From Halorientalis sp. LT38 (GTDB lineage Archaea > Halobacteriota > Halobacteria > Halobacteriales > Haloarculaceae): DNA of 64,000 nucleotides. The translations under genes were made by a program, and so were the position numbers. The notes below the pieces were generated by a model that was given only the letters and a program-made list of their open reading frames with translations, was not told where the DNA came from and made no database searches. Below are positions 41,167 through 61,483 of this stretch, in pieces; position 1 is the stretch's first letter; each line of letters begins with the position of its first letter. The DNA lies in assembly GCF_037031225.1 (NCBI RefSeq), contig NZ_JAYEZN010000001.1, positions 1,054,001 through 1,118,000 on the forward strand, written 5' to 3'.

Positions 41167-41412
41167 TTACCAAAGGATCCGCAGAAGAACTGCGCTGATC
41201 ACGCCAATCACGATGACCCAGATGCCGACCCCGGACATCAATCCGAACAGGGGTGGCAAGAGGATACTCCATGCACCACCGATGAGGACGGCGATTATCA
41301 GTCCGACGCCAAGCGCCAACACGGCGTTCCATGGCCCGATCGATCGGAATACTTGATAGGCAATATAGAGAGCGGCGAGTGCGGCGAGGGCAATGGGGGC
41401 GATGCCGACCAT
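41167..41412 (-). CDS. Small membrane protein, last gene of the bactofilin-like operon
   Basis: An 81-residue protein made almost entirely of three hydrophobic segments (APIALAALAALYIAYQVF, AVLALGVGLIIAVLIGG, VGIWVIVIGVISAVLLRIL) with few charges. No family is recognised. Its ATG overlaps the stop of the beta-helix gene (TGATG), so it is very probably translated with it. It could anchor the operon's product to the membrane; this is inference. Confidence 0.7.
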   Translation of the reverse strand: MVGIAPIALAALAALYIAYQVFRSIGPWNAVLALGVGLIIAVLIGGAWSILLPPLFGLMSGVGIWVIVIGVISAVLLRILW

Positions 41413-42215
41413 CAGTCCACTGCGAAGCCGGCCTGATCGATATCGAGGGACGACAACACCACATCAATGTCGATCTCCGCCGGGCCCTCACCGTTCATGT
41501 CAGCAACGATCTCCATGATAGCAGCCTCGAGTTCTTCGAGTCGGTCAGTCACCTTCTCGAGATTCAGAATACGAGGAGCAAGCGTGAGGTACGTCCGATC
41601 GTTTTGGACATACCGATCTTCGTCCGTCATTTGAGGGAGATCCTGACCGTCGTCGTTGGTACCAGTATCGAGCGGACCTAGACCGGCCACCGAAACCGGC
41701 GTTTGTAGATCCAGCGGTCCATCGGCTATAACCTGGGGTAAGATCGTGGTGACCTCCATCAGCGTCGTACTGCCGCGGGCCCTGAATGTGTAACAGAGCG
41801 AGTCCTCAATCGTCAGCTCCTCGTCACTAGTCGTAATGCCAAGGACGATACAGTTTTCGAGAATCACCTGTGCACCGACGACATTTCCGCGAACGATGCA
41901 GTCTGTGAGTCGGACACGCTGACCGGTCACGGTCCCCTCGACATGGACACCATCGCAAACGACTTTGCCGGGTGATCCAACCTCGCCCTGTACATGGCAA
42001 TCGCTTAATTCGATAGCATCGCTTGCCATGACCGATCCTTCGACGGTTCCATCGGAATCGACATCTATTGTCTCACCATATACTCCACCCTGGACCGTTG
42101 CTCCCTCTCGAATCCGGACTGGGCGTCCTAACTCAGCTTGAACAGTGGGAATCAGTTTTCCGTCGTAAGTTTCATTGGCTTCAACGACTGCACGAGTTTT
42201 TTCGATATCTGCCAT
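41412..42215 (-). CDS. Bactofilin/halofilin-like beta-helix protein
   Basis: A 267-residue protein. Residues about 30-150 show short repeated turns typical of a right-handed beta-helix: VRIREGATVQGGVYGETIDV, GTVEGSVMASDAIELSDCHV, GEVGSPGKVVCDGVHVEGTV and GQRVRLTDCIVRGNVVGAQV. Such repeats occur in bactofilins and in the haloarchaeal halofilins, which polymerise and shape cells. The C-terminal third has a helix (ILNLEKVTDRLEELEAAIMEI). Start and stop overlap both neighbours (TGATG), so it is part of a tightly coupled four-gene operon. The halofilin assignment is by fold resemblance only. Confidence 0.65.
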   Translation of the reverse strand: MADIEKTRAVVEANETYDGKLIPTVQAELGRPVRIREGATVQGGVYGETIDVDSDGTVEGSVMASDAIELSDCHVQGEVGSPGKVVCDGVHVEGTVTGQRVRLTDCIVRGNVVGAQVILENCIVLGITTSDEELTIEDSLCYTFRARGSTTLMEVTTILPQVIADGPLDLQTPVSVAGLGPLDTGTNDDGQDLPQMTDEDRYVQNDRTYLTLAPRILNLEKVTDRLEELEAAIMEIVADMNGEGPAEIDIDVVLSSLDIDQAGFAVD

Positions 42216-43162
42216 CAGTCCTCACCTCCAGTAGTCTGTACTGGGACCCGGTCTGGCAACGTTTTGCCAAAGACGTCTGCATACGATTGTCCGAACGAGG
42301 TTTCGCCGTACTCCGACATAATATCGACCGCCCGGTCCGAAGACAGATAGTCTACGTTGCCCTCGGAGACACCGTCAGCGTCATCCAGAAGACGGTCGGC
42401 ACCGCCGATTGAAGAGAGTTCAGCCCCACACCAGTTATCGTTCTCTGCAGTCGATAGGTGCGAAGGCGCGACAACATCCCGTTTCGTCACCCCATCAACT
42501 TCGTACGTAACAACGTAGTACGGGAACTGCAACTGTCTCACCTCGTCAGTCGTTTTCTCCACGATTGAACCGCTCGTGTGTCGATGTCCGTGGATCTCTT
42601 CGACCAATGATTCCTGTCGGTCGATGAAATCCTGAATTGACTCAACTACAGAGTCGGTCGTATCCGTGATTCGTTCGTTGCGTTCCTCTTTGACTGTGAC
42701 GTTGTGAGACTGGAAGGTTTCCCAGGCCGTCGTCACCTGTTCGACGAACGGCTTCTCGATGCCATCCTCGAATTGCTCTTCGTTAATCTGGAAAATGTGA
42801 TCGCCGAGTTCACGGATCCGCTCCTCGGCCTTTTGATCAAGTTCTGCGTGTCGTTGCTCATACCGTTCGTCGATATTCTCCAGTCTCTCGTCGAGTTCCG
42901 CTCGTTCGATCTCGATCTGTTCTTCTTCTGCATCGATCTGCGGTTCGATCGCCTCGACCTCCATCACGTGTTCCATCATTTTCAGCTCAGCCTGGGCCTG
43001 AATGTTCTCCTTGATGGCATCACTGATGGATTGAAATCCTTCCTTGAGCGTCTCTCTGACTTTCTTGACTTCACCGGTGAGTTCGATGACTTCCTCTTTT
43101 ACTTTGTTCGTTGACTTAATGAGCTGCTTGAGCAACGGGTGAAGGTCATCGCTGCCCGCCAT
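42215..43162 (-). CDS. Coiled-coil protein of the bactofilin-like operon
   Basis: A 315-residue protein. The N-terminal 50 residues look like a methyl-accepting-type or tether coiled coil (LLKQLIKSTNKVKEEVIELTGEVKKVRETL). A long charged coiled coil follows to about residue 125 (EEEQIEIERAELDERLENID). The C-terminal 110 residues appear globular (FPYYVVTYEVDGVTKRDVV ... NDNWCGAELSSIGGADRLL). No family is recognised. ATG 43162 is chosen because GAGGAGGG about 8 bases upstream is a strong ribosome-binding site; it starts one base after the preceding stop. Confidence 0.72.
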   Translation of the reverse strand: MAGSDDLHPLLKQLIKSTNKVKEEVIELTGEVKKVRETLKEGFQSISDAIKENIQAQAELKMMEHVMEVEAIEPQIDAEEEQIEIERAELDERLENIDERYEQRHAELDQKAEERIRELGDHIFQINEEQFEDGIEKPFVEQVTTAWETFQSHNVTVKEERNERITDTTDSVVESIQDFIDRQESLVEEIHGHRHTSGSIVEKTTDEVRQLQFPYYVVTYEVDGVTKRDVVAPSHLSTAENDNWCGAELSSIGGADRLLDDADGVSEGNVDYLSSDRAVDIMSEYGETSFGQSYADVFGKTLPDRVPVQTTGGED

Positions 43163-43163
43163 T

Positions 43164-44834
43164 TCACTTCCCTCCTCGAACTGATGCACCGGTGAGTCGG
43201 TCCCACGCGTACCGGGCTTTGTTGATGACGGACGAGGAACTCATTTTCCCCCGCGTGGTGAAATTGTGCTGTTCGACGTGTTGTTCGTACTCCTGCTCCA
43301 TTTTTGCTTGAGTGCGTGCATCCGCCCGCTCTTGTTCGTGCGCCATCCGTTGGTTCTCCGCTTGTTGTTCGGCGATAAACTTCGCGCGCTCGCGCTGCCG
43401 CTCTTCTTCTCTTAGAAGCTCGGCTTTCTGTTTGGCTGCCTGCTCGGCTTCTTCCAGCCGCTCTTGATCCTCGTTCCGGGTTTCCTCAAGGATCTCTTCT
43501 GTCTTCTCGTCGATATCTTCGAAACTCTCTTCGACGTCTGTTCGGAACTCTTCTTTTCGCTGTTCGTTGAGGCGATCGTATTTGACCATCAACTCGCCGA
43601 TTCGATCGACAGTTCCTCTGGACGCTTTCGCCTTCGTCTGAAGGTCTCGGATCTCTGCTCGTAGATCACGGATTCGATCCGTCGCCGAGCGTATCTCCTC
43701 CTGACGCTGTTCGAACTCTCGTTCCTTGAGGTCCGATTTTTGATCCTCGATGTTCCCGTATATCTTGCGTCGCTCGTCGTCCTTTTCGGCCCATAGCTGA
43801 TCCCACACAGGATTGACGAGGTCATCTTTCAGTTCGTGTCGCGGAACCAAATTCTCGGTCTCGTGGTGGGATCGGCAGGTGTCACAGTACCAATCACTGG
43901 TCTCCGGATCGGAAAGGGTCACCTGTGAATCGATGTCGTCTCGCAGGCAGTCTGGACAGTAGAAGTTATAGCTCACTATTCCAAACGCGTCGGCGGCAGT
44001 CTGGACGTGGTCGTTAAGGAGTTCTACGGCCGTCTCCTGTAATCCCGAGAGATCATCAACAAGCTGTTGACTCCGTTCTGAGATGTCCTCTAGCGCCTCG
44101 TCTCCACCGTCTTCAGCCGCTGTCTTCTGGAGCTCGAAAAGCATCTCGACGTCTTCAGTTGCAGTCGTCTCGTCGATAGCCTTCCCCCACTCGAACGTCT
44201 CTGAATCGGCCTGTTCGGCGATATATTCGAGCGTCTCACTTTCCGGTGAATCCGCCGGGACGACCGGAACCTCAACGGTCTGCTCCTCCGAAGAATCAAG
44301 TGTTTCTTCCACACTTGTAAGAACATCCGTTACCTCCTTTTCTAGATCGTTGGATTCGGGCATGATGACCGGAAATTCATTGATCTCGTCCAGACGCTCG
44401 TGGGCATTCTGGATGGGGTCAGTACTGGTGAGACGTTCTAAGTTGAATTCAGTTCTAGGAACCGAGTCCGTGCCGTCGTAGACAACGACACTTTCTGGCC
44501 CTCGTGGGATACAATAGCCGTTCCAGTACCCCTTCTCGACCCCCTTGATCTCGATGTCTGAGGACTGTTGATCCGCGTATACATATCCACCTACTGCGAT
44601 TCCGATGCTTGCGAGAATTACGAACACCCAGAATGGGCTACTGGCAATGACCAGTCCCAAAAGCCCAATTATAGCCCCTATGCCACCTACAATACCGGCA
44701 CGGTAAACTGTCTGTTTACGATCATCCAGATGTGACTCAAGACGTTCGTTGAGAGCTTCGTTGATAGCTAACACGCGGGCTCTGGTTTCACTGACTGCTG
44801 TATCCTTCTCGTAGACAACATCAGTTGCCTTCAT
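43164..44834 (-). CDS. Membrane protein with zinc ribbon and long coiled coil
   Basis: A 556-residue protein. Two adjacent membrane segments (about residues 46-88) follow a helical N-terminus. A cytoplasmic acidic region leads to a four-Cys zinc ribbon (C293PDC296 and C317DTC320). Then comes a very charged coiled coil of about 170 residues (EEILEETRNEDQERLEEAEQ, AKQKAELLREEERQRERAKF) and a basic C-terminus. No family is recognised. It is the first gene of the operon, with a possible TATA-like GATTACA about 25 bases upstream. The layout suggests a membrane-attached filament or scaffold organiser; that is inference. Confidence 0.72.
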   Translation of the reverse strand: MKATDVVYEKDTAVSETRARVLAINEALNERLESHLDDRKQTVYRAGIVGGIGAIIGLLGLVIASSPFWVFVILASIGIAVGGYVYADQQSSDIEIKGVEKGYWNGYCIPRGPESVVVYDGTDSVPRTEFNLERLTSTDPIQNAHERLDEINEFPVIMPESNDLEKEVTDVLTSVEETLDSSEEQTVEVPVVPADSPESETLEYIAEQADSETFEWGKAIDETTATEDVEMLFELQKTAAEDGGDEALEDISERSQQLVDDLSGLQETAVELLNDHVQTAADAFGIVSYNFYCPDCLRDDIDSQVTLSDPETSDWYCDTCRSHHETENLVPRHELKDDLVNPVWDQLWAEKDDERRKIYGNIEDQKSDLKEREFEQRQEEIRSATDRIRDLRAEIRDLQTKAKASRGTVDRIGELMVKYDRLNEQRKEEFRTDVEESFEDIDEKTEEILEETRNEDQERLEEAEQAAKQKAELLREEERQRERAKFIAEQQAENQRMAHEQERADARTQAKMEQEYEQHVEQHNFTTRGKMSSSSVINKARYAWDRLTGASVRGGK

Positions 44835-46949: not shown

Positions 46950-47194
46950 ATTCACCGCCGGTAGGCGACCTGCTGGTGGAGCATTCAGGCACGGATCTGT
47001 TCTCTTCGATGAGTCTGATTCAACGATGTGAGTCGGTGAGGGAAACCGGAACGGGCGGGACCAATTGTGACGGTGAACGACCGAGAAACCACGTGGTAAT
47101 CAAGGAGTAGACACAATGCGATTCAGTCGGCGTCAGGTTCGTGGGCGTCGTTCATTGAAGTCCTCCCAGAGCACGGAGCACCGACAACCGTTAC

Positions 47195-47485
47195 TTACTG
47201 ATCATCGTCGTCATCGGATGGTGGTCGCTGAGATAGCCGATCGAACCGTGACTGGGATTCATCAGTTCGATCGTTCGTCTCCGCTGCCTGGTACGTCGCC
47301 GCAGACAGCTCACCAGTTGCAATCTCGACGGTGAACACCGCATCGACGTGCTGCCCATCTTCGGGCAGTTCCTTCTGATCCACCACCAACTCCCCGACCA
47401 GGTCTTCCTCACCTTCGACGAGCAGCACCGCCAGTTCGTCCTCGAATCGGTCCAGTACCGCCGTGTGGGTTCCGTCGTCGATCAT
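47195..47485 (-). CDS. DUF3006 domain protein
   Basis: A 96-residue acidic protein with the DUF3006 pattern (AVLDRFEDELAVLLVEGEEDLVGELVVDQKELPEDGQHVDAVFTVEI). DUF3006 genes commonly follow MBL-fold ComEC-like genes in bacteria and archaea, as here: its start overlaps the end of the MBL gene by four bases. Its biochemical role is unknown; the conserved pairing suggests a partner of the hydrolase. Confidence 0.85.
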   Translation of the reverse strand: MIDDGTHTAVLDRFEDELAVLLVEGEEDLVGELVVDQKELPEDGQHVDAVFTVEIATGELSAATYQAAETNDRTDESQSRFDRLSQRPPSDDDDDQ

Positions 47486-48939
47486 GAATACTCCTCCTGA
47501 ATCACGAGTTTACCCGCCTCGTTGCGGACGATAACCGTATCGCCCCCGTTGTTCCAGATCGGACTGCCAGAGCCCCAGTAGAGGTCCGTCTCAGTGTCCT
47601 GTCCACTCCCGGTGTGCAACGTGACCTCCGCACCCGGATCCAGTGTAAACTCGGACGGGAACGTGTAGGTGTGATCGGCCGCATCGGCAACGGTCCACCC
47701 CGACAGATCCAGTGGCTCGCCACCGCTGTTCTCGAAGACGACGTACTCGTCGTTCAGGTTGTCGTACTCATCGCCGGCAGCCTCTTCGTGAATTTCTGTG
47801 ATCGAGAGGTCACCACCAGTGTCCTCGGGCGTCGACATGGGTGTCGCCGTCGCCGTCGAAGTGTCAGAACCGTCGTCGGTCACGATGGGTTCCGTCTCAC
47901 CACCGACGTCGAACACGGTCCGTGTCTGCACTGCACCACCACTGCCAGGAGCGATCGAGTCACCGTCTCGGAGTTCGAGCGGCGACGTCGGTGCAGCCTG
48001 CTGAGTCGCGACCTCGATCGCCGACCCGTTACTGGTCAGGACGACGTCACCGTGAGTCGCGGTCCAGTAGGTCTGGATCGACCGTGACGTCAACCGGTCC
48101 AACACGGCCTCGTCTGGATGGCCGTACTGGGAGTCGTACGCACTGGAGATCACTGCCAGCCGTGGGGTCGCCGCGTCCAGCAACGCGGCGCTCGAGCTCG
48201 TATCACTGCCGTGGTGGCCCGCCTGCAGGACCGACACGTTCAGTGCCGACTCGTACTCGTCGACGAGATACTCCTCGCCTTCGGGGCCGGCGTCACCGGG
48301 CAACAGGAAACTCGACCCGCCGTGAGCGACCCGGAGGACGATACTGTTCTCGTTGCGGTCACCGTTAGCGACGTACCCATCCGGTGGTGCGAGCACGTCG
48401 ACCGATGCCCCCTCGAAGGAAATCCCATCGCCGGCTCGCGTCTGGTACAGCGTCACGTCGTGTTCCTCGATGGCGTCGAGATAGCGTTCGTACGTCTGGC
48501 TACTCGACGTGATCCCCGGGTCGTACACGGCACCGACGCCGTCGGCCTCGGTTTCGAAGTAGTCGATTACCGCCGCGTGCCCACCGATGTGGTCTGCGTC
48601 GGCGTGAGTCGTAACCAGGTGATCGATGCGCTCCATGTCGTTGTCGCGCAGGTACTCGAGAACGTACTCCCCGTCGTCCTGCCAGTCGCCACTGTCGATC
48701 AGTATCGTCTCGTTATTCGGCCCGACGACCAGCGTGCTCGACCCCTGGTCGACGTTGATGAAGTGGACCGAGAGCGAGCCATTCGCACTCGCGACAGTCG
48801 GCGTTCCAGTAGTCGATCCATCCCCAGTTGTGCCCGGTGTCGACGCCGGTGTTCCGTCCATCCCGACGTCCGTCATGCTCCCGCAACCGGCGAGGGCGAC
48901 GAGGAAAGCAACGAGAACGACAGCAGCCCATCTTCGCAT
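47482..48939 (-). CDS. Exported MBL-fold hydrolase with lamin-tail domain
   Basis: A 485-residue lipoprotein-like protein. The N-terminal signal (MRRWAAVVLVAFLVALAGC) carries a lipobox at C19. The metallo-beta-lactamase domain (about residues 54-310) has the metal motif HADADH (H112 to H117), and resembles the ComEC/Rec2 hydrolase domain. A Thr-rich linker leads to a C-terminal lamin-tail domain (LSITEIHEEAAGDEYDNLNDEYVVFENSG, then LDLSGWTVAD). It probably acts outside the cell, perhaps on DNA or phosphodiesters. ATG 48939 is preceded by TATA-like CCTATTC, about 30 bases upstream. Confidence 0.85.
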   Translation of the reverse strand: MRRWAAVVLVAFLVALAGCGSMTDVGMDGTPASTPGTTGDGSTTGTPTVASANGSLSVHFINVDQGSSTLVVGPNNETILIDSGDWQDDGEYVLEYLRDNDMERIDHLVTTHADADHIGGHAAVIDYFETEADGVGAVYDPGITSSSQTYERYLDAIEEHDVTLYQTRAGDGISFEGASVDVLAPPDGYVANGDRNENSIVLRVAHGGSSFLLPGDAGPEGEEYLVDEYESALNVSVLQAGHHGSDTSSSAALLDAATPRLAVISSAYDSQYGHPDEAVLDRLTSRSIQTYWTATHGDVVLTSNGSAIEVATQQAAPTSPLELRDGDSIAPGSGGAVQTRTVFDVGGETEPIVTDDGSDTSTATATPMSTPEDTGGDLSITEIHEEAAGDEYDNLNDEYVVFENSGGEPLDLSGWTVADAADHTYTFPSEFTLDPGAEVTLHTGSGQDTETDLYWGSGSPIWNNGGDTVIVRNEAGKLVIQEEYS

Positions 48940-49071
48940 ACAGTACAACGGGGAGGGCCAGCCGAATAGGTCTGCTGGCATCGTTGGTCGCCGGAAGAAT
49001 TTGGATCCCTGACCGTTTCACGGGAAGGGTGAGTGTGGCCCGATCACCAGATGGAATCTGCAATCAGAAAC

Positions 49072-51090
49072 TCACGTATCTACCCCTGAGTCAAGCATTC
49101 TCTTCTCGAATCCACTTGCTCGCACTCGCAACGGGAACCAGCCCTCTTCATCGATTCCAAGCAATGCTTCCGAGAACCCGTCTTCGTCGTTTCCGGCTTT
49201 CGCCGTGCGAACCCAGTTCACCTCACGCTCGCTTAGCCCAAACCACTCGGCCAGTTTCTCGGCTTCTTCGTTTACCCGGTGGATCAGTGTCATCGAACAC
49301 AGATTTGCGATCGTCTGTGCCTGCGGTGTGAGCGTGAACTCACCACCCGTCTGCGTGATGAAGTGAAGCGAAAGGTCGTAGTGGCGACTGTGCCTGACAG
49401 CCATCTCCAGAAACTCCAGTGAGGTCGCATCGTTCATCAGGTAGTGGGCTTCGTCGATGACGAACACGACCCGTTTGTCCGTCTGTTTCGCCCGTTCGTA
49501 GACGGCATTGAACAGGACGGACATCATCAGACTCGTTTCAGTTCTTCCGCGGGCTCCTTCTTCCTGGTGCAAATCCAGATAGAGTACCTTCGAGTCCAGA
49601 TCGAACTCAGTGGCTTGGGCGAGATTCGCCAGGTCACCATCCGGCCGGAACGACGGCCGCAGATCCGTCAGCAAAGATTGGGCATCCTCTCGAACCCCTT
49701 CCTGCTCGCTGGCCGTCGGATAACCAAATGAGACCGGATCATCCAGTAGATCTTCGAGAACAGCGATTACGTCCCGAATCGTCGGCGACTCGTGATGGTG
49801 GGTCTCCGGATCGCGCGTGATCCCCTGGCGCTCGTAGGCTTCCTGCACCGCACGCCTGAGCGTCTGCTTACGCTCCTCAAGGGGATTGTTGGCGATGTGG
49901 GTGAAGAAGGTATCACAGAAGGTCAGCACCCAGCTGATCTGTTCGGCCCACGGGTCCAGATCGGGAACTCGATCTAGAACATGCTGTGGTGTCGACTGCA
50001 GCTCAAGTGGGTTGAACCCACGCCGACCGCCAACGGTGATTCGCTCGCCACCGAGGGCTTCGTTCACGCCTGCAAATCCCTCCATCGGGTCGAGCATGAC
50101 GATCAGCGTTTCCGGATCGTACATCGCCCGCCTGAGCAGTTGCAACTTTGTCGAGAAGGATTTCCCTGCACCCAACTGGCCGATAACCATCGTACAGTAG
50201 CCCGTCTCCCGATTGAATCGATCGAGAATGAGCGGGCTCTCGTTGAGTGCATAGGTACCGTACTCGACACCGGGTTCAGCGAACGACCCCGAGACAAACG
50301 GGAACATCGCCCCGACAGCGCCGGCGAGCATCGGCGTCTTGGCATCCAGTGACTCGTCAAGTTTGTCGACACCGATAGGACTGGCCGAGATGAGCGACTC
50401 CGTCTGTGCCCACCGTGGCGTGACGGGTGTGAGATTTGCAGGCGCACGTCTCGTTGCTTTCCGAACAGCGTCGGTCTCTAACTCATCACGTTCTGCAGCG
50501 CCAGTCGTGAGATACATCGAGGCGTCGAAGGCCCGCATCGACGTATTCCGGAGGACGTCGTACAGTTCGCGGTGATCTTCGAGGTCTTTCTGGATACCCC
50601 GAGCGCTGGCTCTGTGTTTCTCGGAGAGGTACTCGAATTCAGCTTCCAGATCCTCTAATTGGTTCTCCAGCGAATCGAGTGTACTCTGGGTATCCCGCGG
50701 GTCAAGATGCATCGAGATATCCGTCCGCCGGGTTTCGCCCGTCGAATAGAGCGCTTCGAGCAAGCCATCGGCTGGTGCATCCGCGAACTCGCCGATCCAC
50801 TGTGTCTGGAGCCATCGGTTGCCCGCTCGAATCGCACCCGGCGTCTTCTCGATTGCTGATGGTGCGATAATCGACGAATGAACGTCTGACTCTTCTTGGA
50901 GTGGACTATTCGGCGTCTCGTGGGTCACCGAGAACGGCGATGTATCGTCCGTGTCTGACTCGGGTTCGATAGAGTGGCCTGTAGTTTCAGCATCAGTCGT
51001 TTCTTGTTCGGCTGATTGGGCCTCAGCGTCTGTCTCGGGTTGTTCTTGGGAGGTATCGTCTTCCTTCACGTGTTCGATATCGCTGCTCAT
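49072..51090 (-). CDS. VirB4-like conjugation ATPase (C-terminal ATPase half)
   Basis: A 672-residue protein. About 200 N-terminal residues are acidic or coiled coil. Then comes an ATPase domain with Walker A GQLGAGKS (K310), GGRRGFNPLEL, Walker B VVFVIDEAHYLM (D546) and the later HFITQTGGEF. This is the VirB4/TraC class, which powers assembly of type IV secretion systems. The N-terminal half of a usual VirB4 is encoded by the upstream gene (51087-52115), with which this start overlaps (ATGA). It is the last gene of the T4SS operon. Confidence 0.88.
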   Translation of the reverse strand: MSSDIEHVKEDDTSQEQPETDAEAQSAEQETTDAETTGHSIEPESDTDDTSPFSVTHETPNSPLQEESDVHSSIIAPSAIEKTPGAIRAGNRWLQTQWIGEFADAPADGLLEALYSTGETRRTDISMHLDPRDTQSTLDSLENQLEDLEAEFEYLSEKHRASARGIQKDLEDHRELYDVLRNTSMRAFDASMYLTTGAAERDELETDAVRKATRRAPANLTPVTPRWAQTESLISASPIGVDKLDESLDAKTPMLAGAVGAMFPFVSGSFAEPGVEYGTYALNESPLILDRFNRETGYCTMVIGQLGAGKSFSTKLQLLRRAMYDPETLIVMLDPMEGFAGVNEALGGERITVGGRRGFNPLELQSTPQHVLDRVPDLDPWAEQISWVLTFCDTFFTHIANNPLEERKQTLRRAVQEAYERQGITRDPETHHHESPTIRDVIAVLEDLLDDPVSFGYPTASEQEGVREDAQSLLTDLRPSFRPDGDLANLAQATEFDLDSKVLYLDLHQEEGARGRTETSLMMSVLFNAVYERAKQTDKRVVFVIDEAHYLMNDATSLEFLEMAVRHSRHYDLSLHFITQTGGEFTLTPQAQTIANLCSMTLIHRVNEEAEKLAEWFGLSEREVNWVRTAKAGNDEDGFSEALLGIDEEGWFPLRVRASGFEKRMLDSGVDT

Positions 51091-52115
51091 TGGGCAGCCC
51101 TCTCAGCGTCAAGAATCGAGCGCACCTGGAAGGCTTTCTCCGAGTCGCCATACTCAATCTGCTCACCGGCCCAGAACGAGGCCAACAATTCAACGGCTTC
51201 TGTCGCAGGGACTGCCCGCGCCCCACAGCCTTCGATCTCACGAAGGCCGCGTTCAATTCGAGAAAGTCGCTGTTCGAGCGTCCCGAACATGGCATCGCGC
51301 TGCTCGTTTCGGGAGGGCGCTAACCAAACGCGAACGAGCGTTCCGAGGAGGGGTACCCGAGCGAGTTTTCCGACGAGGCTTTCGTGTTCGAATTGTACTT
51401 CTTCGGGCGCGATCGTGACGATCACGTAGTGATCACGGATCGTCATCTGGCGCTGTTCGAGGTCGGTCTCGTACCACTCAATATAGTTCTCGATCAAGGC
51501 GGCGAGTTGCGGATTAGCCTTCACGTCGTCATCGCCGAGTCGTGATTCGTAGTGTGCGAGGTACTCCTCGACAGGGAAGTCCCGCGTTGTCGAGTAGATC
51601 TGGATCGGAAATTCGACGACCGTGTTCAGGAAGTCCTGAAAGGCGTCTGCTTTCTGTGCCCACTGCGCTCCCGTCGCGAGGGCCATGTTGGGTGGCTCGA
51701 CTTGAATCAATCCGACGAGCGCTCCGTCAGTCCGCTCTATGGCATTCTGATCTGGGTGGATGCGTTCGACCTGTGTATATTCCTTTGCGTCGTCGTGTTC
51801 GAGTTCGGTGTCGTTCGAATAGAAGCTGATCACCGTCTGGAGCCAGTCTAGACTGGTCGTATAATTCGGCGTCAGTGAGACGAAGATCGCCCCAATCGTA
51901 ATCGCCACACCGGCAATCGGGAGCGTCAGCGTCTGGATCGAATAGCCGGCGATGATTGCTGTGGGAAAGAGTAGTTGCGTACAGAGGACGACGAGGACGC
52001 CCGGGAAGAGTGCCACGGCAACGTCGGTCAGACTGTAGCTACCGATGAGGTTCGCGTCAGTGTTGAGTGATTTTGGAATGCGCTTCGACGGATCGGAGTG
52101 CGGAGTATCTGCCAT
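51087..52115 (-). CDS. VirB3/PrgI-like and VirB4 N-terminal half
   Basis: A 342-residue protein. The N-terminus has two membrane helices (about residues 28-80) after a short charged region, as in VirB3/PrgI proteins. The remainder (about 100-330: NAIERTDGALVGLIQVEPPNMALATGAQWAQKADAFQDFLN ... FPIQIYSTTRDFPVEEYLAHYE) resembles the N-terminal domain of VirB4/CagE. VirB4 is thus split in two genes. It lies 9 bases after the VirB6-like gene and overlaps the ATPase gene by four bases. Confidence 0.8.
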   Translation of the reverse strand: MADTPHSDPSKRIPKSLNTDANLIGSYSLTDVAVALFPGVLVVLCTQLLFPTAIIAGYSIQTLTLPIAGVAITIGAIFVSLTPNYTTSLDWLQTVISFYSNDTELEHDDAKEYTQVERIHPDQNAIERTDGALVGLIQVEPPNMALATGAQWAQKADAFQDFLNTVVEFPIQIYSTTRDFPVEEYLAHYESRLGDDDVKANPQLAALIENYIEWYETDLEQRQMTIRDHYVIVTIAPEEVQFEHESLVGKLARVPLLGTLVRVWLAPSRNEQRDAMFGTLEQRLSRIERGLREIEGCGARAVPATEAVELLASFWAGEQIEYGDSEKAFQVRSILDAERAAQ

Positions 52116-52124
52116 TAGTTGATG

Positions 52125-53462
52125 TTAGTTGATGTACCGTGGTCGGTCGTCGTCGCTATTGCTGTCAGTACTGGATCGAGATCTACGCGTTCGGGGCCGG
52201 TCTCGATCACGGAGTGTCTCGAAATTCGTCGATTTGTTCTGCTGGGTTCGGTCGGCTGTCCCGGGTGCACTCGAATCAGTCGTAGTCGAGGCGTCAGCGC
52301 CAGAATTCGGAGTATGGTCATCGGGGCCCTGGCCAGGACTTGCACTCGAGCCAGTCGTTCCACCGCTACTACCTCCGCCACCCTTTCGAGTGTTGGAGGT
52401 ACTCTGCAATCGCTGTGTCGCGTCAGCGAGTTGTTTCCCTGCAGCGTGAGCGCGTGAGTCACCGGAGCCAAGAACAGACTGCCCGTTGGGTTTGATCGCT
52501 GGCTTCCCGTCCATACCACGCGAGAAGTTTCTCGTCCCGTGAGCCGTACGCGAGCCAACATCGCGCGATTTAGTGACTCGGTTTCGAGCTTGTGACCCCG
52601 ACAGTCGTTGGGAAGCACGGTCTGCAACGAAGAAGATCGCACCTGCCTGCCAGAACAGCACCAGTGGTGAGATAACTGCGATCAGTGGAATCACGAGTGC
52701 CGTCAGCCACAGACCGAATCCACCCATCGAGACGCTGAAGCTCGATCCCAGAAGCGCACCGAGTCGGAATAGGATCGCGACCGGGATCGTCATGAACAGG
52801 AACGGTACGTAGAATCCCGAGAGCCGGCTCACGAATCGCGATACAAGCGTGAACGGCCCGACGCCAGGAACCCAGAGTGCGATCAAAATCGGCATCATGA
52901 GGACGAAGAGATACAGCACGACCTCACGAGCGAGATAGATCAGTGCGATCAGTACGAAGAGAACGAAATCTGCAGAGAGCGTAAGGACGAGACCGAGTAC
53001 GCCCATCGAACTGAACGAAAGTGTCTCGAAGAGCGCGATATCCGACAGTGACGGGACGATAATCTCAGCCAGCGCACTCATAAACCGAAGTGAGAGAGCG
53101 GCGATCCACCACCACATGAGAATACCGAGAAGGCCAGTGAAAGCTCGCTTCTTGAGCTTCGTTCGGTGGTAACTACTGAATAGGTGACTCGTCATCTCGA
53201 AGAAGATTACCAAGCCGATCGAGACCGCCCAGAGAAACAGCGACAATGGGATCATGCTCTCCCAGTAGTACTCGTAGATCGCGGGCCAGGCACCGTTCGT
53301 CGGCGGCCCGAAGACGGAGTTCGGATGGGGTGTTCCGACAATTATGTCTACTAAGTCGGATCCGTAGTCCTCAATGAGTTTAGTGATTGGGCTAAAGAGA
53401 CCTCGAAGAACCTCTTTGAGAGCATCGACAATGACATCACCCAGTGCGCTGAAATCAGCCAT
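52125..53462 (-). CDS. VirB6/TrbL-like polytopic membrane protein
   Basis: A 445-residue protein with six or more membrane helices between about residues 60 and 290, and helical ends. A long Ser/Thr/Gly/Arg-rich, probably disordered C-terminus follows (from about residue 300). Layout, size and place between pilin and VirB4 genes fit VirB6/TrbL, the inner-membrane channel of conjugation systems. The sequence match to bacterial VirB6 is weak, so the call rests mainly on context. The start overlaps the lipoprotein gene by eight bases. Confidence 0.75.
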   Translation of the reverse strand: MADFSALGDVIVDALKEVLRGLFSPITKLIEDYGSDLVDIIVGTPHPNSVFGPPTNGAWPAIYEYYWESMIPLSLFLWAVSIGLVIFFEMTSHLFSSYHRTKLKKRAFTGLLGILMWWWIAALSLRFMSALAEIIVPSLSDIALFETLSFSSMGVLGLVLTLSADFVLFVLIALIYLAREVVLYLFVLMMPILIALWVPGVGPFTLVSRFVSRLSGFYVPFLFMTIPVAILFRLGALLGSSFSVSMGGFGLWLTALVIPLIAVISPLVLFWQAGAIFFVADRASQRLSGSQARNRVTKSRDVGSRTAHGTRNFSRGMDGKPAIKPNGQSVLGSGDSRAHAAGKQLADATQRLQSTSNTRKGGGGSSGGTTGSSASPGQGPDDHTPNSGADASTTTDSSAPGTADRTQQNKSTNFETLRDRDRPRTRRSRSSTDSNSDDDRPRYIN

Positions 53463-54348
53463 CGCTATCCTCCTCGATTAGATCAAGCTGAACCTCTGTG
53501 CAGGAGTAACGGCGACCATACCTCCCCTGCTCTATTTTTCCACCAGCGTCAAATTGGGCAGTTGCACGAACGTTGTTCCCATCTGCGAGACCAGCAATGA
53601 TTCCTATTTGACCAGATAGATTAGCACACCCACTGTGCTCATTTGTGGAGAACAGAAGCGCCTCTTCGTCTGGCACATATGTTTGGTCTCCATCAGAAGG
53701 AATCAAGATCTTCTCTGGCGTTTCAGGTTCTGTATAAGTTGGAATGCTTGAATGGCCCCGTAGATCGTGATTTGCAGCAAAGTATGGGGAGTCCTCAAAG
53801 ACGATATCGGATACCCAAGTTGGCCCGGTTCCGCTGTTATGAACCGTGACTTCGATTTTGGCGTACTCTTGATCGAATTTTCCATTCCTATACTGCTTGA
53901 CTTCTGTAATCTCCAGATCCGGGTTCAAATCAATCGCTACCGTATCGCTGATCGATCCATCTGAGATGAGTGCTAACTCGTGGGTACCTGGCGTATAGTG
54001 GGAGTAGCGACCCATAACCGACGGGATTTCGATGATCTGCAGACGCACCGTTGTCTCTCCTGTCGCGACCGATGTCGACGTGTAGAGACTCCCCTCTGGA
54101 TCGAGCAGATTCAACTTCGAGATGTCGTGTCCGTCGACGAGTCGAACGACGATGTCCTGACCCTCGAACCCAATCGCCTGCACGAGTGAACTCTGGGCAG
54201 CCAATCCGTCTTCGCGAGCGTCCGGATTGGACTCTTGATCTGTCTCACCTGAACCGAGACAGCCCGCAACGCTCGTGAGGAGACCGACTGATCCGAGGCG
54301 AACGAACGACCGACGGGAGAGACGGGTACGTCCCGAAGAATCCTCCAT
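53455..54348 (-). CDS. Tat lipoprotein of the T4SS operon
   Basis: A 297-residue lipoprotein. RRSFVRLGSVGLLTSVAGC is a Tat signal with lipobox. The mature part is beta-rich (DIVVRLVDGHDISKLNLLDPEG, DLEITEVKQYRNG, YAKIEVTVHNSGTGPTWVSDIVFED) with a CARDB-like adhesion domain. It is encoded between the membrane protein gene at 54349 (adjacent, no gap) and the VirB6-like gene, so it probably decorates the secretion apparatus at the cell surface. Confidence 0.8.
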   Translation of the reverse strand: MEDSSGRTRLSRRSFVRLGSVGLLTSVAGCLGSGETDQESNPDAREDGLAAQSSLVQAIGFEGQDIVVRLVDGHDISKLNLLDPEGSLYTSTSVATGETTVRLQIIEIPSVMGRYSHYTPGTHELALISDGSISDTVAIDLNPDLEITEVKQYRNGKFDQEYAKIEVTVHNSGTGPTWVSDIVFEDSPYFAANHDLRGHSSIPTYTEPETPEKILIPSDGDQTYVPDEEALLFSTNEHSGCANLSGQIGIIAGLADGNNVRATAQFDAGGKIEQGRYGRRYSCTEVQLDLIEEDSDG

Positions 54349-56079
54349 TTAGACACCCCTCCACGGTGGCCAGACACGCCATCCAGTGATCCGGTCGATG
54401 AGATACACCCCGACCAGAAACAGCGACACTGGAACGGCGAACCGAAACAGCGTCGCTAACCACTCAAGAACAGTTCCACGAGCATAGACCACGTCCGAAT
54501 CAGCCATGTAGCCCGGCGTGTCCCACCACCAGAAACTCGGAACGTATCGCCCAGCAATCGAACCATCTCCCCTGGGGAGCGTCGTGATGACCGTTCCGTT
54601 TCTCGTGGTGTTGAATCGCTCACCTGCGATTATCACGTATCCATCACGGTCTCCAGTTTCAACTGGGTCACCGGTCGCGTTCGATCGGAGTGTCGCCTTG
54701 ATCCGAATCGTCGACGCATCACGGTCGAGAATTTCGAGTGTAAAGTTGCTCTCGGAGAGTTCCATCTCCTCGAATGACGAGAAGGGGCGTTCGGCTGTCA
54801 CACCACGTACCAGACCCGTTGCAACCACCGGGTCAGGATCCCGATCCGTCTTCGTTCGCGTCGCGATTCCAAAGCTCGCTGTGTATGGTTCCGTGAGTGT
54901 ATCGAGGTTGATCGCGTCGGGGAGCGCCCCCGGTTGAGTTTGCTCGCCGTAGGTTTCGAGGATCGTCACGTTCGCACGCGGTGATGGAGTCGGCCCAGTC
55001 TCGATCGGGTAGGCCGTCACCTGCAGTGGCTGTGCTGGCGAGGAGATTCGTTTCTGGCCGTCGTCACTCGATTGAACGAGTGAGTCCCACTCTGTGTCAC
55101 GAGCGCTATAGAAGCGCCAGACACCGCGGACCTCGCCATTCGGGAGCGCGTGTCCAAGCCATGGGTAGTTCTTGTAGACGACGAGTCCCAGATCACCATT
55201 TGGATAGGTCGTCCGATACCCCGAAATATCGAGATCGTAGACTGTCACATTCTGCGAGTCCCGAACTGTGAGGGTCTCCGAATCAGGCTCCAGTTCTCTG
55301 TCGAAATCGATACAGGCCCTGCCATATCGGTTGTACTGGTTGCAATTCTCCAGAATGTGGATCAGATCAACCCTGATATCGGCTTCCAGCGTGAGGGTCA
55401 GATTCACACTACGATAGCTATCGAGGTCCTCGAATGGGACAGTCACTCGCTGTGAGCCAGACTGGCGTGACAGAACCTCGCCGTCGACGAGGAGTCGCAC
55501 TTCAGAGACCTCGTGAGAGCGAAGGTTCCAGAAATTACGCTCGCCCAGCATCGCAGTGGGCTCCTCGATTTCGAGGCGGTAATCGACCGACCCCAGTACG
55601 GATCCCGATGGGCCAACGAACAAGGGCTTCTCACCTTCTTGGATGCGCGCTCGTGTCGAGGGTTGGACGGCGAAGATATTCGCGGTTGCATCCTTCAGGA
55701 ACGATCCATCCGTGAGGGTCGCATTCGGTGGATAGACCGACTGCTCTCGACCCGTGTTTGGAACGTCACCCAGATCCCCTCGATTCCACTGCTCGACAGT
55801 AGCCGGAGGTTCATCAAGTGGGATGTCCGTCCCGTTCGCGAGGACAGCCATCGCCGATCGCGCTCGCGGGCCGGTCACGTTTGCCGGTGAGACGAAAGCA
55901 TCTCGATCGCCCGACCAGAGGACATGAAACGTTTCATTCGAGAGTCCGTGATCGGTCTGGTTCGGTGGCGACCGCGATGCAGGCGCATAGGCAGTCGTTG
56001 CAGTGGCTGTCGAGACGAGCGTCACGAATAGGATGACGCTCAATCCAATCCCACCGACGAGGGATTTCAGAAGCCGCAA
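54349..56079 (-). CDS. Large exported membrane-anchored protein of the T4SS operon
   Basis: A 576-residue protein with an N-terminal signal/membrane helix (LSVILFVTLVSTATAT), a large extracellular beta-rich part and a C-terminal membrane helix (about residues 545-562, FAVPVSLFLVGVYLIDR). No family is recognised. Its start overlaps the VirB2-like gene by 13 bases. The position suggests a T4SS surface component or mating-pair protein specific to archaea. Confidence 0.75.
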   Translation of the reverse strand: MRLLKSLVGGIGLSVILFVTLVSTATATTAYAPASRSPPNQTDHGLSNETFHVLWSGDRDAFVSPANVTGPRARSAMAVLANGTDIPLDEPPATVEQWNRGDLGDVPNTGREQSVYPPNATLTDGSFLKDATANIFAVQPSTRARIQEGEKPLFVGPSGSVLGSVDYRLEIEEPTAMLGERNFWNLRSHEVSEVRLLVDGEVLSRQSGSQRVTVPFEDLDSYRSVNLTLTLEADIRVDLIHILENCNQYNRYGRACIDFDRELEPDSETLTVRDSQNVTVYDLDISGYRTTYPNGDLGLVVYKNYPWLGHALPNGEVRGVWRFYSARDTEWDSLVQSSDDGQKRISSPAQPLQVTAYPIETGPTPSPRANVTILETYGEQTQPGALPDAINLDTLTEPYTASFGIATRTKTDRDPDPVVATGLVRGVTAERPFSSFEEMELSESNFTLEILDRDASTIRIKATLRSNATGDPVETGDRDGYVIIAGERFNTTRNGTVITTLPRGDGSIAGRYVPSFWWWDTPGYMADSDVVYARGTVLEWLATLFRFAVPVSLFLVGVYLIDRITGWRVWPPWRGV

Positions 56080-56480
56080 CTTGCCCCACCTGCAACGACG
56101 TTGTTCAGGAGGAACTGCAGGATCACCGTTGCCAGCGGTGCAACGATCACACCCCAGATGAGACCCTGATTCCGGATTTCCTTGATCTCCTTTTTCAGAT
56201 CCGCACGGCGGACGGCCGGCGTCGCAACCGTCGCACCCAGAAAGATCGTCCCGCCGAGTAGCGGGCCACCGAACTGGATGATGGTGAAGATGTTGCGGAC
56301 GGTTTCTGCCATATCAGTCGAGCAGAAGTCGTTCCCGACTGACTGGGCCAGGACGGGGTCGACAGCGACGACACTCAGGAGAAATCCGGTGAGAATTGTC
56401 CACCGAACTGTGCGGACAGATGGACTGATTGAACAACGAATCGACAACGAACCTGCAGTATCTGTAGTATCAGCTGACAT
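56067..56480 (-). CDS. VirB2/TrbC-like pilin
   Basis: A 137-residue protein. An unusually long N-terminus leads to a signal-type helix ending VDPVLAQS, a likely cleavage site. The mature part has two membrane helices (about residues 73-93, FGGPLLGGTIFLGATVAT, and about 110-128) joined by a charged loop (RRADLKKEIKEIRNQG). This is the layout of VirB2/TrbC pilins. Two Cys residues (FCSTD, ASCGF) flank the helices. It is the first gene of the T4SS operon; the 235 bases upstream, to 56716, should hold the promoter. Confidence 0.75.
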   Translation of the reverse strand: MSADTTDTAGSLSIRCSISPSVRTVRWTILTGFLLSVVAVDPVLAQSVGNDFCSTDMAETVRNIFTIIQFGGPLLGGTIFLGATVATPAVRRADLKKEIKEIRNQGLIWGVIVAPLATVILQFLLNNVVAGGASCGF

Positions 56481-56715
56481 AGTTGCTACTCAGGGAGTCA
56501 CTTTGCGTCGAACCCCACCCAAGGATGGAATTGACCGCAACGCGACGAGTACATCTGATCTGGTGAATGGGTGGGATATAAACCTATAGATTCGATCGTT
56601 GTATGGCGTTTTTCGTGAGTAAGGCGCAACTATCTTAGTAGCAATTGACTCCTAAACTTGCCATCCAGTGTAGCATTCTGACATAACCACTTCGCGTCTG
56701 GGGATGGTGCTGATA

Positions 56716-57168
56716 TTACTCTGGCAGTGGCTTTTTACCAGTTCTCACACATTCCCAACAGGGGAAATCCTCGAAGCACTCCTCGCACTCGTCTGGGTCT
56801 GTCTGAGAAGCTATAGGGGAATCGTCGGCGGTCGTCCTGTCCCCAATGGGACGCTCGTCTGTACGAGTGGTTCCACCATCGGCTGCGACGCGGGTCGTCG
56901 CTGCATCGAGGATCGGCTTGCGGATCGCAACGGCGACGCGGTGTTTGCAGGCACCCTCGAAGCGGGCATCCGCTGGACAGGTGCAGTGTGTGGGGAGCCC
57001 ATCCCTGATCGTGATGAGATATTCGTGATCCTCGGGATTTGCGTAGCTACCGTTTCGCACCTGGACGCCCCCGGGAGTGAGCGTGTACTCGAAGGCTTCG
57101 TACTGGGCACGCTTTCGGACACGGTTCGTGAACTGAAGTCTGGCAAGTGGATTGTCTGTCTTCGACAT
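56716..57168 (-). CDS. SWIM zinc-finger protein
   Basis: A 150-residue protein with a SWIM zinc finger CTCPADARFEGACKHRV (C62, C64, C74, H76). A disordered acidic part and a C-terminal CEECFEDFPCWEC that may bind a second metal follow. SWIM proteins bind DNA or proteins and are common on haloarchaeal plasmids. ATG 57168 (MSKTDNPLARLQF) is chosen; the frame upstream to 57492 crosses the hairpin element and the end of the PIN gene. The GC-rich hairpin at 57195-57219 lies just upstream. Confidence 0.82.
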   Translation of the reverse strand: MSKTDNPLARLQFTNRVRKRAQYEAFEYTLTPGGVQVRNGSYANPEDHEYLITIRDGLPTHCTCPADARFEGACKHRVAVAIRKPILDAATTRVAADGGTTRTDERPIGDRTTADDSPIASQTDPDECEECFEDFPCWECVRTGKKPLPE

Positions 57169-57194
57169 TCGTATTTCAGGACACATCGATCGAT

Positions 57195-57219
57195 GTGCCC
57201 CGCGCCCCTCGCGGGGCAC
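57195..57219 (-). promoter_or_regulatory. Recurrent GC hairpin upstream of the SWIM gene (copy 1 of 4)
   Basis: GTGCCCCGCG (57195-57204) and CGCGGGGCAC (57210-57219) are perfect 10-base arms with a 5-base loop. On the coding strand it is preceded by TTTTGTTG. It is separated from ATG 57168 by 26 bases, including GAAATACGA next to the ATG. Confidence 0.7.
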
Positions 57220-57337
57220 CAACAAAACACGATACGGATGCAGGATAGCCACGCTGTTCCCAAACCCACCGGTAAGCGGCTGTTTCAATTGTCGTAGACC
57301 GTGCGGTAACAGAGAATCGGGGCCGCTGTCGTCAGTC

Positions 57338-57850
57338 TCAGGACTCTGAAAGCAACGAGCGAGCCCGTTGTACGTAGCTGTTCGCGTCCCAACTGCGGGC
57401 GTCGCTGATCTCATCGAGGAGCAACCGTGCATCAGAAGCTGACAACTGCTCGGTTCGAACGAGAATCGAGAGTAGTGTCGGGGTCGTGACAAGCCGGGTA
57501 TCAGCGAGCGAGGCGTGAATCAAGCCAAGCTGATTGAATTCGTCACAGAGCAACAGGGCGACATCGAGTTCGTTCGCAAGTTTGACGGCAGCGTTTTCGC
57601 CATCATCGAGCGGAAACTCGGCATCAAGGTTAACTGACCGCGTCTCCAGCGCATCAGTTCGGTCAAGGACGGTGCTTGCAGCACGGCCGTGTGTATCATC
57701 GTAGGAGGCGATCTCTCGGAGTTCCTCGATAACAACCGTTGGGACGACAACCTCATATTGGGCAAGACAGATTCCGAGTGGGTCGGGATCGTCCGTAGCA
57801 ACGACTCCGAGACTGACGAGAGCAGAGGCATCTGCGACGAGTGGCGACAT
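57338..57850 (-). CDS. PIN-domain toxin (VapC-like)
   Basis: A 170-residue PIN-domain protein. The acidic residues of the RNase site are visible: D7 in VADASAL, E42/E43 in VIEELREI, the Glu of DDGENAAVKLA and Asp in LLCDEFNQLG. Probably a ribonuclease toxin. Its ATG 57850 overlaps the last base of the antitoxin stop (TAATG), the classic antitoxin-first arrangement. Confidence 0.87.
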   Translation of the reverse strand: MSPLVADASALVSLGVVATDDPDPLGICLAQYEVVVPTVVIEELREIASYDDTHGRAASTVLDRTDALETRSVNLDAEFPLDDGENAAVKLANELDVALLLCDEFNQLGLIHASLADTRLVTTPTLLSILVRTEQLSASDARLLLDEISDARSWDANSYVQRARSLLSES

Positions 57851-58152
57851 TATGCGTCAGCGACTTCGTCGATAAAATCCTCGTCCAACTGTTGTTTCAA
57901 TACCCGGAGATTCGCCGCCTCTTCGGCACCGACGAGCGCTTTGAGCTGTTCGAAGGTGATCTCGTTGTCGTAGTACGCGGCCGCAATCTCCTGGGTGAGT
58001 GCATCGTCGTGCGTAGCCTCCTGAAGATACTCTCGAAGGGCAGTCAGGAGGATATCCGTCCGGTCTTCTCCCAGGACCGCTGCGAGGGCGTCAGTTCGGT
58101 CAACGAGCCTGTGTGGTGCTCGGAACTGGACGCGTTTCTTCTCGCTACTCAT
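57850..58152 (-). CDS. Antitoxin of the PIN module (ribbon-helix-helix/UPF0175-like)
   Basis: A 100-residue protein. The N-terminus RVQFRAPHRLVDRTDALAAVLGEDRTDILLTALREYLQEA fits a ribbon-helix-helix DNA-binding domain. The C-terminus (IAAAYYDNEITFEQLKALVGAEEAANLRVLK) resembles UPF0175-type antitoxins. ATG 58152 (MSSEKKRVQF) is chosen over the longer frame from 58278. The promoter is flanked by two direct repeats (58156-58209), consistent with self-repression. Confidence 0.82.
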   Translation of the reverse strand: MSSEKKRVQFRAPHRLVDRTDALAAVLGEDRTDILLTALREYLQEATHDDALTQEIAAAYYDNEITFEQLKALVGAEEAANLRVLKQQLDEDFIDEVADA

Positions 58153-58155
58153 TAT

Positions 58156-58209
58156 GTGTACATTGTGAGCCAGACTACTTAGCCCTTCTCGTGTGTACAG
58201 TGTGAGCCA
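58156..58209 (-). promoter_or_regulatory. Direct-repeat operator at the toxin-antitoxin promoter
   Basis: GTGTACATTGTGAGCCA (58156-58172) and GTGTACAGTGTGAGCCA (58193-58209) match at 16 of 17 positions, with starts 37 bases apart. Each contains the palindrome TGTACA. Between them, on the coding strand, GGCTAAGTAG (around 58176-58185) is placed like a TATA box, about 28 bases before ATG 58152. One copy would cover the start site and the other the TFB-recognition region. Confidence 0.75.
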
Positions 58210-58287
58210 AAACAACTTGCACAGATCTAGCCAGTGTGTGGAAAACAGCCCCTTTGCGGTTGTGCAGAGAACAGTCAAATTACAGCT

Positions 58288-58893
58288 CTACCAATCGTCC
58301 CCCAGCCACTCTCGAACTCGTTCGTACTCATCGTTCGTCCGCCAGCACGCACCAGAGTCGACGTGTCGGACCTCATAGCGACTCTTACAGCGACCACACC
58401 GGTACCCGTCATCGGGATGGGTCACTGACTTTGAGGCACGGTGTCGATCGAGGTGCCAGCCACAGTCTGCATTGATGCAGACGAGTTGGAGACGAGCCTC
58501 AGTGAACGGCCGACAATAGCGTGGTGCACCGATCTCTCGAGCCTTCTGGAGAAATCGCTCCCCATGCGTGGATTCGCCGAAGTGCTGGAACTCCCAGGCA
58601 TGGATGAGTTCGTGTCGAATCGTTCCGGTGAACTCCGCCCACCCGTATTCTTCGTAGGCAGCCCAGGCAAGTGTGATCGTAATCTGTTCTGTGAGGTGGT
58701 TGTACTCGCAACAGCCCGCATAGCGCTTTGCTCGCTGGGAAATCTTCCAGTCAATCAGCGGAACGTCGACGTCGAGGTCGACAGCTCGTGCGTATTCAGG
58801 GGCCCGTTCGAGCAGCGCTGCTTTGCTTTGGGGATCTTGTTTCTGAGTCGGTCGGTGAAATCGATTAGCGTCGAGTGTCGTCTGTTTTCTCAC
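58288..58893 (-). CDS. SprT-like zinc metallopeptidase domain protein
   Basis: A 201-residue SprT-like protein: metal motif HELIHAWEF (H94, E95, H98), the following GESTHGERFLQKAREIG, and a C-terminal zinc ribbon (CINADCGWH ... YRCGRCKSRYEV). SprT/Spartan relatives cleave DNA-protein crosslinks. GTG 58893 is the start. One of the recurrent hairpins lies 22 bases upstream. It is a frequent gene on haloarchaeal plasmids and conjugative elements. Confidence 0.87.
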   Translation of the reverse strand: MRKQTTLDANRFHRPTQKQDPQSKAALLERAPEYARAVDLDVDVPLIDWKISQRAKRYAGCCEYNHLTEQITITLAWAAYEEYGWAEFTGTIRHELIHAWEFQHFGESTHGERFLQKAREIGAPRYCRPFTEARLQLVCINADCGWHLDRHRASKSVTHPDDGYRCGRCKSRYEVRHVDSGACWRTNDEYERVREWLGDDW

Positions 58894-58898
58894 GAGTG

Positions 58899-58939
58899 CT
58901 CAGGGGCACACGAAATGCGCCCTCGCCCCGCAGGGCGCA
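58899..58939 (-). promoter_or_regulatory. Recurrent GC hairpin upstream of the SprT-like gene (copy 2 of 4)
   Basis: TGCGCCCT (58916-58923) and AGGGCGCA (58932-58939) form a perfect 8-base hairpin with an 8-base loop (CGCCCCGC), 22 bases upstream of GTG 58893. CTCAGGGGCACACGAAA (from 58899) is nearly identical to the right half of the copy at the TFB gene (CTCAGGGGCACACAAAA). On the coding strand the hairpin is preceded by TGTTGTG. Confidence 0.65.
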
Positions 58940-59048
58940 CACAACAGAGAGCAGCTAGCGCCGGTCTCAGCAAAGTTGGAACCAATCCCGTCGTCGGTTT
59001 GATCTGATCCGTCGTGGACTAGAGATGTATCTTCGCTTTTTGACTCAT

Positions 59049-59588
59049 TCAGGAGATCTCCTCAATCAGCTCAAATCCATCTACGAATTGGACTCGGTCT
59101 TCGAAGCCATTTGCTGTGAGAGACGCAACGACTCCCTCCCCTGCATCGGTATCCGTCGTTACGACCGAGACAAACTCTGCATTACCGTTGGTCAAGCAGT
59201 CGACGGCAACAGCACCAAGCGCTGTATCTGCCTTCTCGATTTGATCCTCGTCACGGTTCGACGAGGTAGCGATGAAGGTCCGAATATCGTCCATCACGCT
59301 CGAGACTGTGCTGTCCGTGTAGTCCGGGTCCGCAGCAACCGTCACCCACCCAGCGTCGATAGCGCTATTGATGGGGGTCTGGCCAGGAGTACTGCGGTCC
59401 GGTGCGCCGCCAAGTTCAGCGTAGACACGCTTGGGAATCACGAATGTGATGTCGTGTCGATGTACAAACCGTTCGAGTGCGGTGTACTTGTTATTCTCTT
59501 GTCGACCGCACGCGATGAACAGGCCGGAATCGGCGATCCAGACCACTGACTCATCGACATCGTCGAACGGCCCGCTCTCTTTGGGCAA
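59049..59588 (-). CDS. PIN-like toxin, partner of the HTH protein
   Basis: A 179-residue PIN-like protein: VVWIADSGLFIACGRQENNKYTALERF with the first catalytic Asp, IPKRVYAEL with the Glu, EKADTALGAVAVD, and SVVTTDTDAG with the last Asps. Likely a ribonuclease. No ATG is available at the right place. TTG 59588 is chosen because GGAGG at 59597-59601 is an excellent ribosome-binding site 8 bases upstream. It lies in the same frame as the preceding HTH gene, only one codon after its TGA. Confidence 0.8.
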   Translation of the reverse strand: MPKESGPFDDVDESVVWIADSGLFIACGRQENNKYTALERFVHRHDITFVIPKRVYAELGGAPDRSTPGQTPINSAIDAGWVTVAADPDYTDSTVSSVMDDIRTFIATSSNRDEDQIEKADTALGAVAVDCLTNGNAEFVSVVTTDTDAGEGVVASLTANGFEDRVQFVDGFELIEEIS

Positions 59589-59591
59589 CCT

Positions 59592-60176: not shown

Positions 60177-60312
60177 ACATTACATAATTCGTGTATTGGG
60201 TAATAACGCTTTGGACGGACGAGCAACTACAGATGTGCCTACGGTGTGTCGCGTAGAATCTCCCCGAAGACGCCTACGAGGAAGACTCCCATACACCAAG
60301 TTCTGGTGAAAG

Positions 60313-60459
60313 CTACTCTACCTGATACACTGCAATGCCAGCTCGCCCACAGAGCGGACAGGATTCACCGGAGGACTCGACAGTCGTTCCACAGTGACGA
60401 CACTCACAGATCTGCTCGAACCGAGATCGTCTCAGAACCCGAGTGATGAAATCGAACAT
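60313..60459 (-). CDS. Zinc-finger microprotein downstream of TFB
   Basis: A 48-residue protein, MFDFITRVLRRSRFEQICEC followed by RHCGTTVESSGESCPLCGRA. It has two CxxC knuckles (ECRHCG and CPLCG), typical of small haloarchaeal zinc-finger proteins. Its ATG shares one base with the TFB stop (TGATG), so translation is coupled to TFB. It is paralogous to the protein at 61662-61814. The function is unknown; a regulatory role in the TFB operon is possible. Confidence 0.8.
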   Translation of the reverse strand: MFDFITRVLRRSRFEQICECRHCGTTVESSGESCPLCGRAGIAVYQVE

Positions 60460-61439: not shown

Positions 61440-61461
61440 GTTCGTATTCCAGGGACTTGCT

Positions 61462-61483
61462 TGCCCCGCACCCCTCAGGGGCA
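61462..61483 (-). promoter_or_regulatory. Recurrent GC hairpin upstream of TFB (copy 3 of 4)
   Basis: TGCCCC (61462-61467) and GGGGCA (61478-61483) form a 6-base hairpin. An alternative smaller hairpin CCCC-TCA-GGGG uses the right arm. On the coding strand it follows TTTTTGTG. It is 22 bases upstream of ATG 61439 and the sequence next to the start, GGAATACGAAC, resembles that of copy 1. Confidence 0.7.

Follow-up and report, generated by a model that had tools for sequence, protein, structure and literature searches.

The window analysed here, a stretch of 64,000 nucleotides from the haloarchaeon Halorientalis sp. LT38, carries three adjacent genes, referred to as A, B and C, that are most safely described as a conserved membrane module that is centred on a bactofilin-family protein and moves by horizontal transfer. 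What is new is that A-B-C adjoins an ESCRT-III/Vps4 cluster in two haloarchaea and in a distant genome, G435, which belongs to another class. The position of A-B-C inside the ESCRT clusters of some species suggests an undescribed membrane scaffold, and in some lineages the module appears to be part of the ESCRT-III/Vps4 apparatus. Archaeal bactofilins are known as single proteins, and to our knowledge no function has been established for archaeal ESCRT systems beyond those of the TACK and Asgard archaea. This compact module joins a membrane anchor to a bactofilin-family protein, and some lineages add ESCRT-III/Vps4, kinase and SPFH genes; it thereby opens both questions to experiment, with named genes, in haloarchaea that can be cultivated.

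Gene layout and protein features

An earlier note on this DNA had described four open reading frames, translationally coupled through gaps or overlaps of one base, and both the ORF list and the sequence bear this out (Table 1). A and B are separated by one base, while B and C, and likewise C and D, overlap by one base.

Table 1. The four genes of the operon and their positions in the window
Gene	Position	Strand	Product length	Remark
A	43164-44834	-	556 aa	Open reading frame present
B	42215-43162	-	315 aa	ATG at 43162
C	41412-42215	-	267 aa	Open reading frame present
D	41167-41412	-	81 aa	Three-TM; optional member

The same note read A as a membrane, zinc-ribbon and coiled-coil protein, B as a coiled-coil protein, C as a bactofilin-type beta-helix and D as a small transmembrane protein, a reading that our results support. 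A is laid out as a hydrophobic hairpin near the N-terminus (~46-88, with a strong hydrophobic window at 46-64 and a weaker hydrophobic helix at ~68-88), a cytoplasmic domain, a CPxC...CxTC zinc ribbon at ~293-320 whose cysteines are invariant among relatives, and a long coiled coil (~342-527), which an AlphaFold2 model of low overall confidence resolves into long helices at 342-404 and 408-527. In the A alignment, the cysteines of the zinc ribbon and the initial stretch of the coiled coil rank among the most conserved columns. B is an acidic, helix-rich coiled coil with a conserved C-terminal domain (LQxPYYVVxYExDGV), in which a transmembrane segment was sought and none is present, and D has three hydrophobic segments. 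No family was named for A, B or D by Pfam, NCBIfam, PADLOC or PHROGs, and hhalign comparisons found B unrelated to ESCRT-III and A unrelated to SPFH. One hit, to a "tendon repeat" design, was set aside as reflecting helical composition. The AlphaFold2 models were made from single-sequence or two-sequence inputs, with mean pLDDT values of 55.6 and 48.2.

Gene C and the bactofilin family

The sole meaningful family match among the four proteins in these collections was that of C to Pfam Bactofilin (PF04519), at 2.7e-5 and 24.8 bits in a single-protein scan, where the gathering score is 27.9; when the genome was searched, the frame as a whole totalled 28.4 bits. The single-sequence AlphaFold2 model of C contains a confident beta-helix at ~33-137, and residues 48-137 of this model align by VIA-align with the Thermus bactofilin 6ria (6ria_1) with a Z of 11.0 and an rmsd of 1.8 Å over 86 residues at 21% identity. 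Hexapeptide-repeat enzymes and the other matches listed for the model aligned no better than at an rmsd of ~10-11 by VIA-align, and a plain Foldseek search of the model against the PDB gave no significant match. Judged by its sequence and modelled fold, C is a divergent bactofilin-family protein.

C resembles the Thermus thermophilus bactofilin (PF04519, PDB 6ria) in its predicted beta-helix core and its Pfam match, but in the single-protein scan that match stays under the gathering score, and C has an extra region at 138-190, a conserved C-terminal helix (~208-238, TYLTLxPRILNLE) and the constant partners A and B. It is by predicted fold that C is likened to the bactofilin filament proteins, and C may polymerise as they do. 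The halofilins HalA and HalB of Haloferax volcanii are described in a review as bactofilin-family proteins of haloarchaeal shape and curvature (Curtis et al. 2024, cited in PMC12186497). C, compared with them by description only, is likewise a haloarchaeal member of the family, but it is restricted to ~4% of haloarchaea. The C-terminal helix region is found alone in G016 and G077, where it perhaps represents decayed copies of C. Stand-alone ORFs that match only this region of C lie at L041 10023-10232 and L042 9142-9429. The window genome has a second PF04519 match elsewhere, which is only remotely similar to C (hhalign probability 37%).

Distribution of the module

Among 97 close relatives, A and C were found together in 12, every time with B between them; a few others show small fragments of C or weak matches to it. 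In the class-wide set A is present in 15 of 391 genomes, and full-length C in exactly those 15. With G001, G034 and G051 these make 18 haloarchaeal genomes, and with G435 a total of 19. In all 19 the three genes are adjacent and in fixed order, with a spacing of mostly -4 to +3 bases, and this shared order excludes chance for A-B-C. The haloarchaeal proteins are 35-62% identical to those of the window, and in G035 gene A is split into two frames. A match to A in G016 lies in a copper ATPase and was rejected as chance. Searches of viral contigs and plasmids gave no relatives of A or C.

The gene order that the earlier note proposed to look for in other haloarchaea is conserved for A-B-C, whereas D directly follows C in only three loci (the window, L092 and L096). 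Three genes rather than four make up the conserved unit, and D is a real but minor, optional member. Nine loci have next to the triad a gene for a transmembrane protein that ends in HEAT repeats (PF13646); in five it precedes A and in four it follows C. Six haloarchaeal loci have neither this gene nor D. D and the HEAT gene never occur together, an outcome with an expectation of ~10% by chance alone.

Association with ESCRT-III/Vps4 clusters

The archaeal "Main"/Halo_FHA ESCRT systems consist of ESCRT-III, a Vps4-like AAA, arCOG09748, arCOG08177 and Ser/Thr kinases (Makarova et al. 2024, PMC10936438), and clusters in G010, G306, G035, G135 and G435 fit this description, the two arCOG labels being assigned here by that description rather than by arCOG profiles and ESCRT-III being identified from locus context and architecture, with no Pfam or NCBIfam name. 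Vps4 and ESCRT-III lie beside the module in G010, G306 and G435 only, and elsewhere in the genome in G035 and G135. In G435, A-B-C is preceded by genes for arCOG08177-like, arCOG09748-like and ESCRT-III-like proteins, an AAA ATPase, a helical repeat protein, a Ser/Thr kinase and a transmembrane coiled-coil protein. The arCOG09748-like protein is helical and coiled-coil with a winged-helix-like C-terminus, and the ATPase is Vps4/CdvC-like, with a single AAA and a helical, MIT-like N-terminal region (NF041006, 216 bits over most of its length, below the cut-off). An FtsZ-family gene (L105 3719-4816) is situated within ~12 kb of the G435 ESCRT loci.

In G010 (L036/L108) and G306 (L094/L109) a single cluster holds kinase-A-B-C-HEAT together with ESCRT-III-like, Vps4-like AAA, arCOG09748-like and arCOG08177-like genes, as well as SPFH-zinc-ribbon and FHA-like zinc-ribbon proteins. 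The ESCRT cluster of G035 retains, as a remnant with two stops, the N-terminal part of an A gene next to a kinase and a transposase, the main A-B-C copy being located away from it, and the two ESCRT loci of G135 are on other contigs than A-B-C. The window genome, in contrast to the systems of PMC10936438, has A-B-C without those genes, and it has no match to the ESCRT-III or the arCOG09748 profile. Bactofilin or beta-helix proteins are not mentioned in the text of PMC10936438, and in the literature searched, an incomplete selection of texts lacking figures and supplements, none links bactofilins to archaeal ESCRT systems.

Searching haloarchaea with the G435 ESCRT-III alone gave no convincing match, and haloarchaeal profiles were therefore used. 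The ESCRT-III profile matched 22 of 391 genomes, 15 of them at E<1e-30, and four lie among the 15 ABC genomes. Strong matches (E<1e-30) occur in 4/15 ABC genomes versus 11/376 others (one-sided Fisher p 0.0015), and enrichment is also seen for all profile matches (p 0.007, likewise one-sided), in tests that ignore phylogeny and with an A5 profile built partly from ABC genomes. An initial contrast of 5/19 ABC genomes with 0/61 others had a small control set and was superseded by the 391-genome test. Of the 15 sampled haloarchaea with ABC, 11 gave no match to the ESCRT-III profile, one of them being the window genome, and 11 of the 15 genomes with that ESCRT-III subtype are without ABC; the co-occurrence is enriched but partial.

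An ESCRT-III/Vps4 cluster without A-B-C is present on the Halomicrobium mukohataei plasmid pHmuk01 (L142 1-42019), accompanied by numerous Ser/Thr kinases and a PP2C phosphatase, and its ESCRT genes are annotated as hypothetical protein or ATP-binding protein. A double-AAA ATPase of 832 aa (L147 9601-12099; G000:C1 ~1021.6-1024.1 kb), nearer to the haloarchaeal Vps4-like AAA than Cdc48 is, adjoins a 999-aa repeat protein, and similar genes occur in G001, G002, G198 and G279. These five genomes have the gene in other neighbourhoods; no ESCRT-III-like gene was recognised beside it, and for this reason it was not counted as ESCRT.

Phylogeny of the module

In the ABC tree the four ESCRT-bearing haloarchaea group together (support 64), nested in a clade that also contains G001 and G051, has full support and is far from the window copy. 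The ABCs of G010 and G306 are sisters, so the ESCRT adjacency in these two counts as one event. The tree is discordant with taxonomy: G000 and G001, of the same genus, fall in different clades. G001 is of the window's genus but stands outside the window's ABC clade, an indication of horizontal transfer.

A possible role for the module

The explanation we prefer, to which we would give about an even chance, is that A-B-C encodes a mobile bactofilin scaffold anchored in the membrane, which in some lineages teams up with membrane-remodelling machinery and in others acts on its own. A membrane-tethered scaffold is the most likely mechanism, and we infer polymerisation, a physical complex and a membrane-scaffold role. 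C would assemble via its bactofilin-like beta-helix; A would be the anchor to the cytoplasmic membrane through its N-terminal hairpin and would reach C by its long coiled coil, with B as a bridge between them and the C-terminal helix of C docking the coiled coils. A further membrane protein may tune the scaffold, D in the window and the TM-HEAT protein elsewhere. In one ABC subclade and in G435 the scaffold most likely organises or recruits the ESCRT-III/Vps4 machinery encoded alongside it with a Ser/Thr kinase, while in most carriers, the window genome included, it would act without ESCRT machinery. We consider only tentatively, as rather doubtful, that A-B-C is a bactofilin-based platform organising archaeal ESCRT-III/Vps4 under Ser/Thr-kinase control and was later freed in haloarchaea for other membrane partners. 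If so, it would be a so far unknown bridge between the bactofilin cytoskeleton and ESCRT membrane remodelling.

The bactofilin-like fold predicted for C, and the shape control that the review PMC12186497 attributes to the halofilins as haloarchaeal bactofilins, would also agree with a halofilin-type cell-shape cytoskeleton unrelated to ESCRT, in which C would be a third haloarchaeal bactofilin and A and B its dedicated anchors in the membrane; the ESCRT subtype is indeed absent from most ABC genomes. We think this unlikely, since a module found in only ~4% of haloarchaea does not belong to core morphogenesis, and the ESCRT adjacency in two distant lineages would be left unexplained. A chance neighbourhood, in which ABC came to lie next to ESCRT genes in islands where accessory genes accumulate and has no functional connection with them, is also improbable. 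Most ESCRT loci are without ABC and most ABC loci without ESCRT, pHmuk01 being an example of the former; however, the kinase-A-B-C order within the clusters of G010 and G306, the remnant of A next to the kinase in G035 and the independent adjacency in G435 argue against chance.

We regard as very unlikely that the module is a horizontally spread anti-virus or anti-plasmid defence island, encoding a sensor/effector complex anchored in the membrane. It contains no enzymatic, nuclease or NTPase domain, and its PADLOC matches are weak, coiled-coil ones, although such matches to defence proteins, e.g. ZorA, are many. The kinase, HEAT and ESCRT neighbours are no defence markers, but a restriction gene lies near one ESCRT cluster without ABC. 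The patchy spread over 15 of 391 genomes in several families, the discordance of the ABC tree with taxonomy and the low GC of the window copy would all be compatible with defence.

Surroundings of the window copy

The ABC copy of the window has a GC of 0.53 versus 0.64, and along the window GC drops from ~0.70 to 0.52-0.60 towards a conjugation-like island; the copy is probably on a low-GC, acquired island. The low-GC conjugation-like island adjoining the operon (47000-64000) encodes a TraG/VirB4-like ATPase (49072-51090), TrbL/VirB6 (52125-53462), TFB (60459-61484) and an ArdC-N protein (61915-62853). Positions 47482-48981 encode a secreted protein that combines a metallo-beta-lactamase (ComEC-like) domain with a lamin-tail domain.
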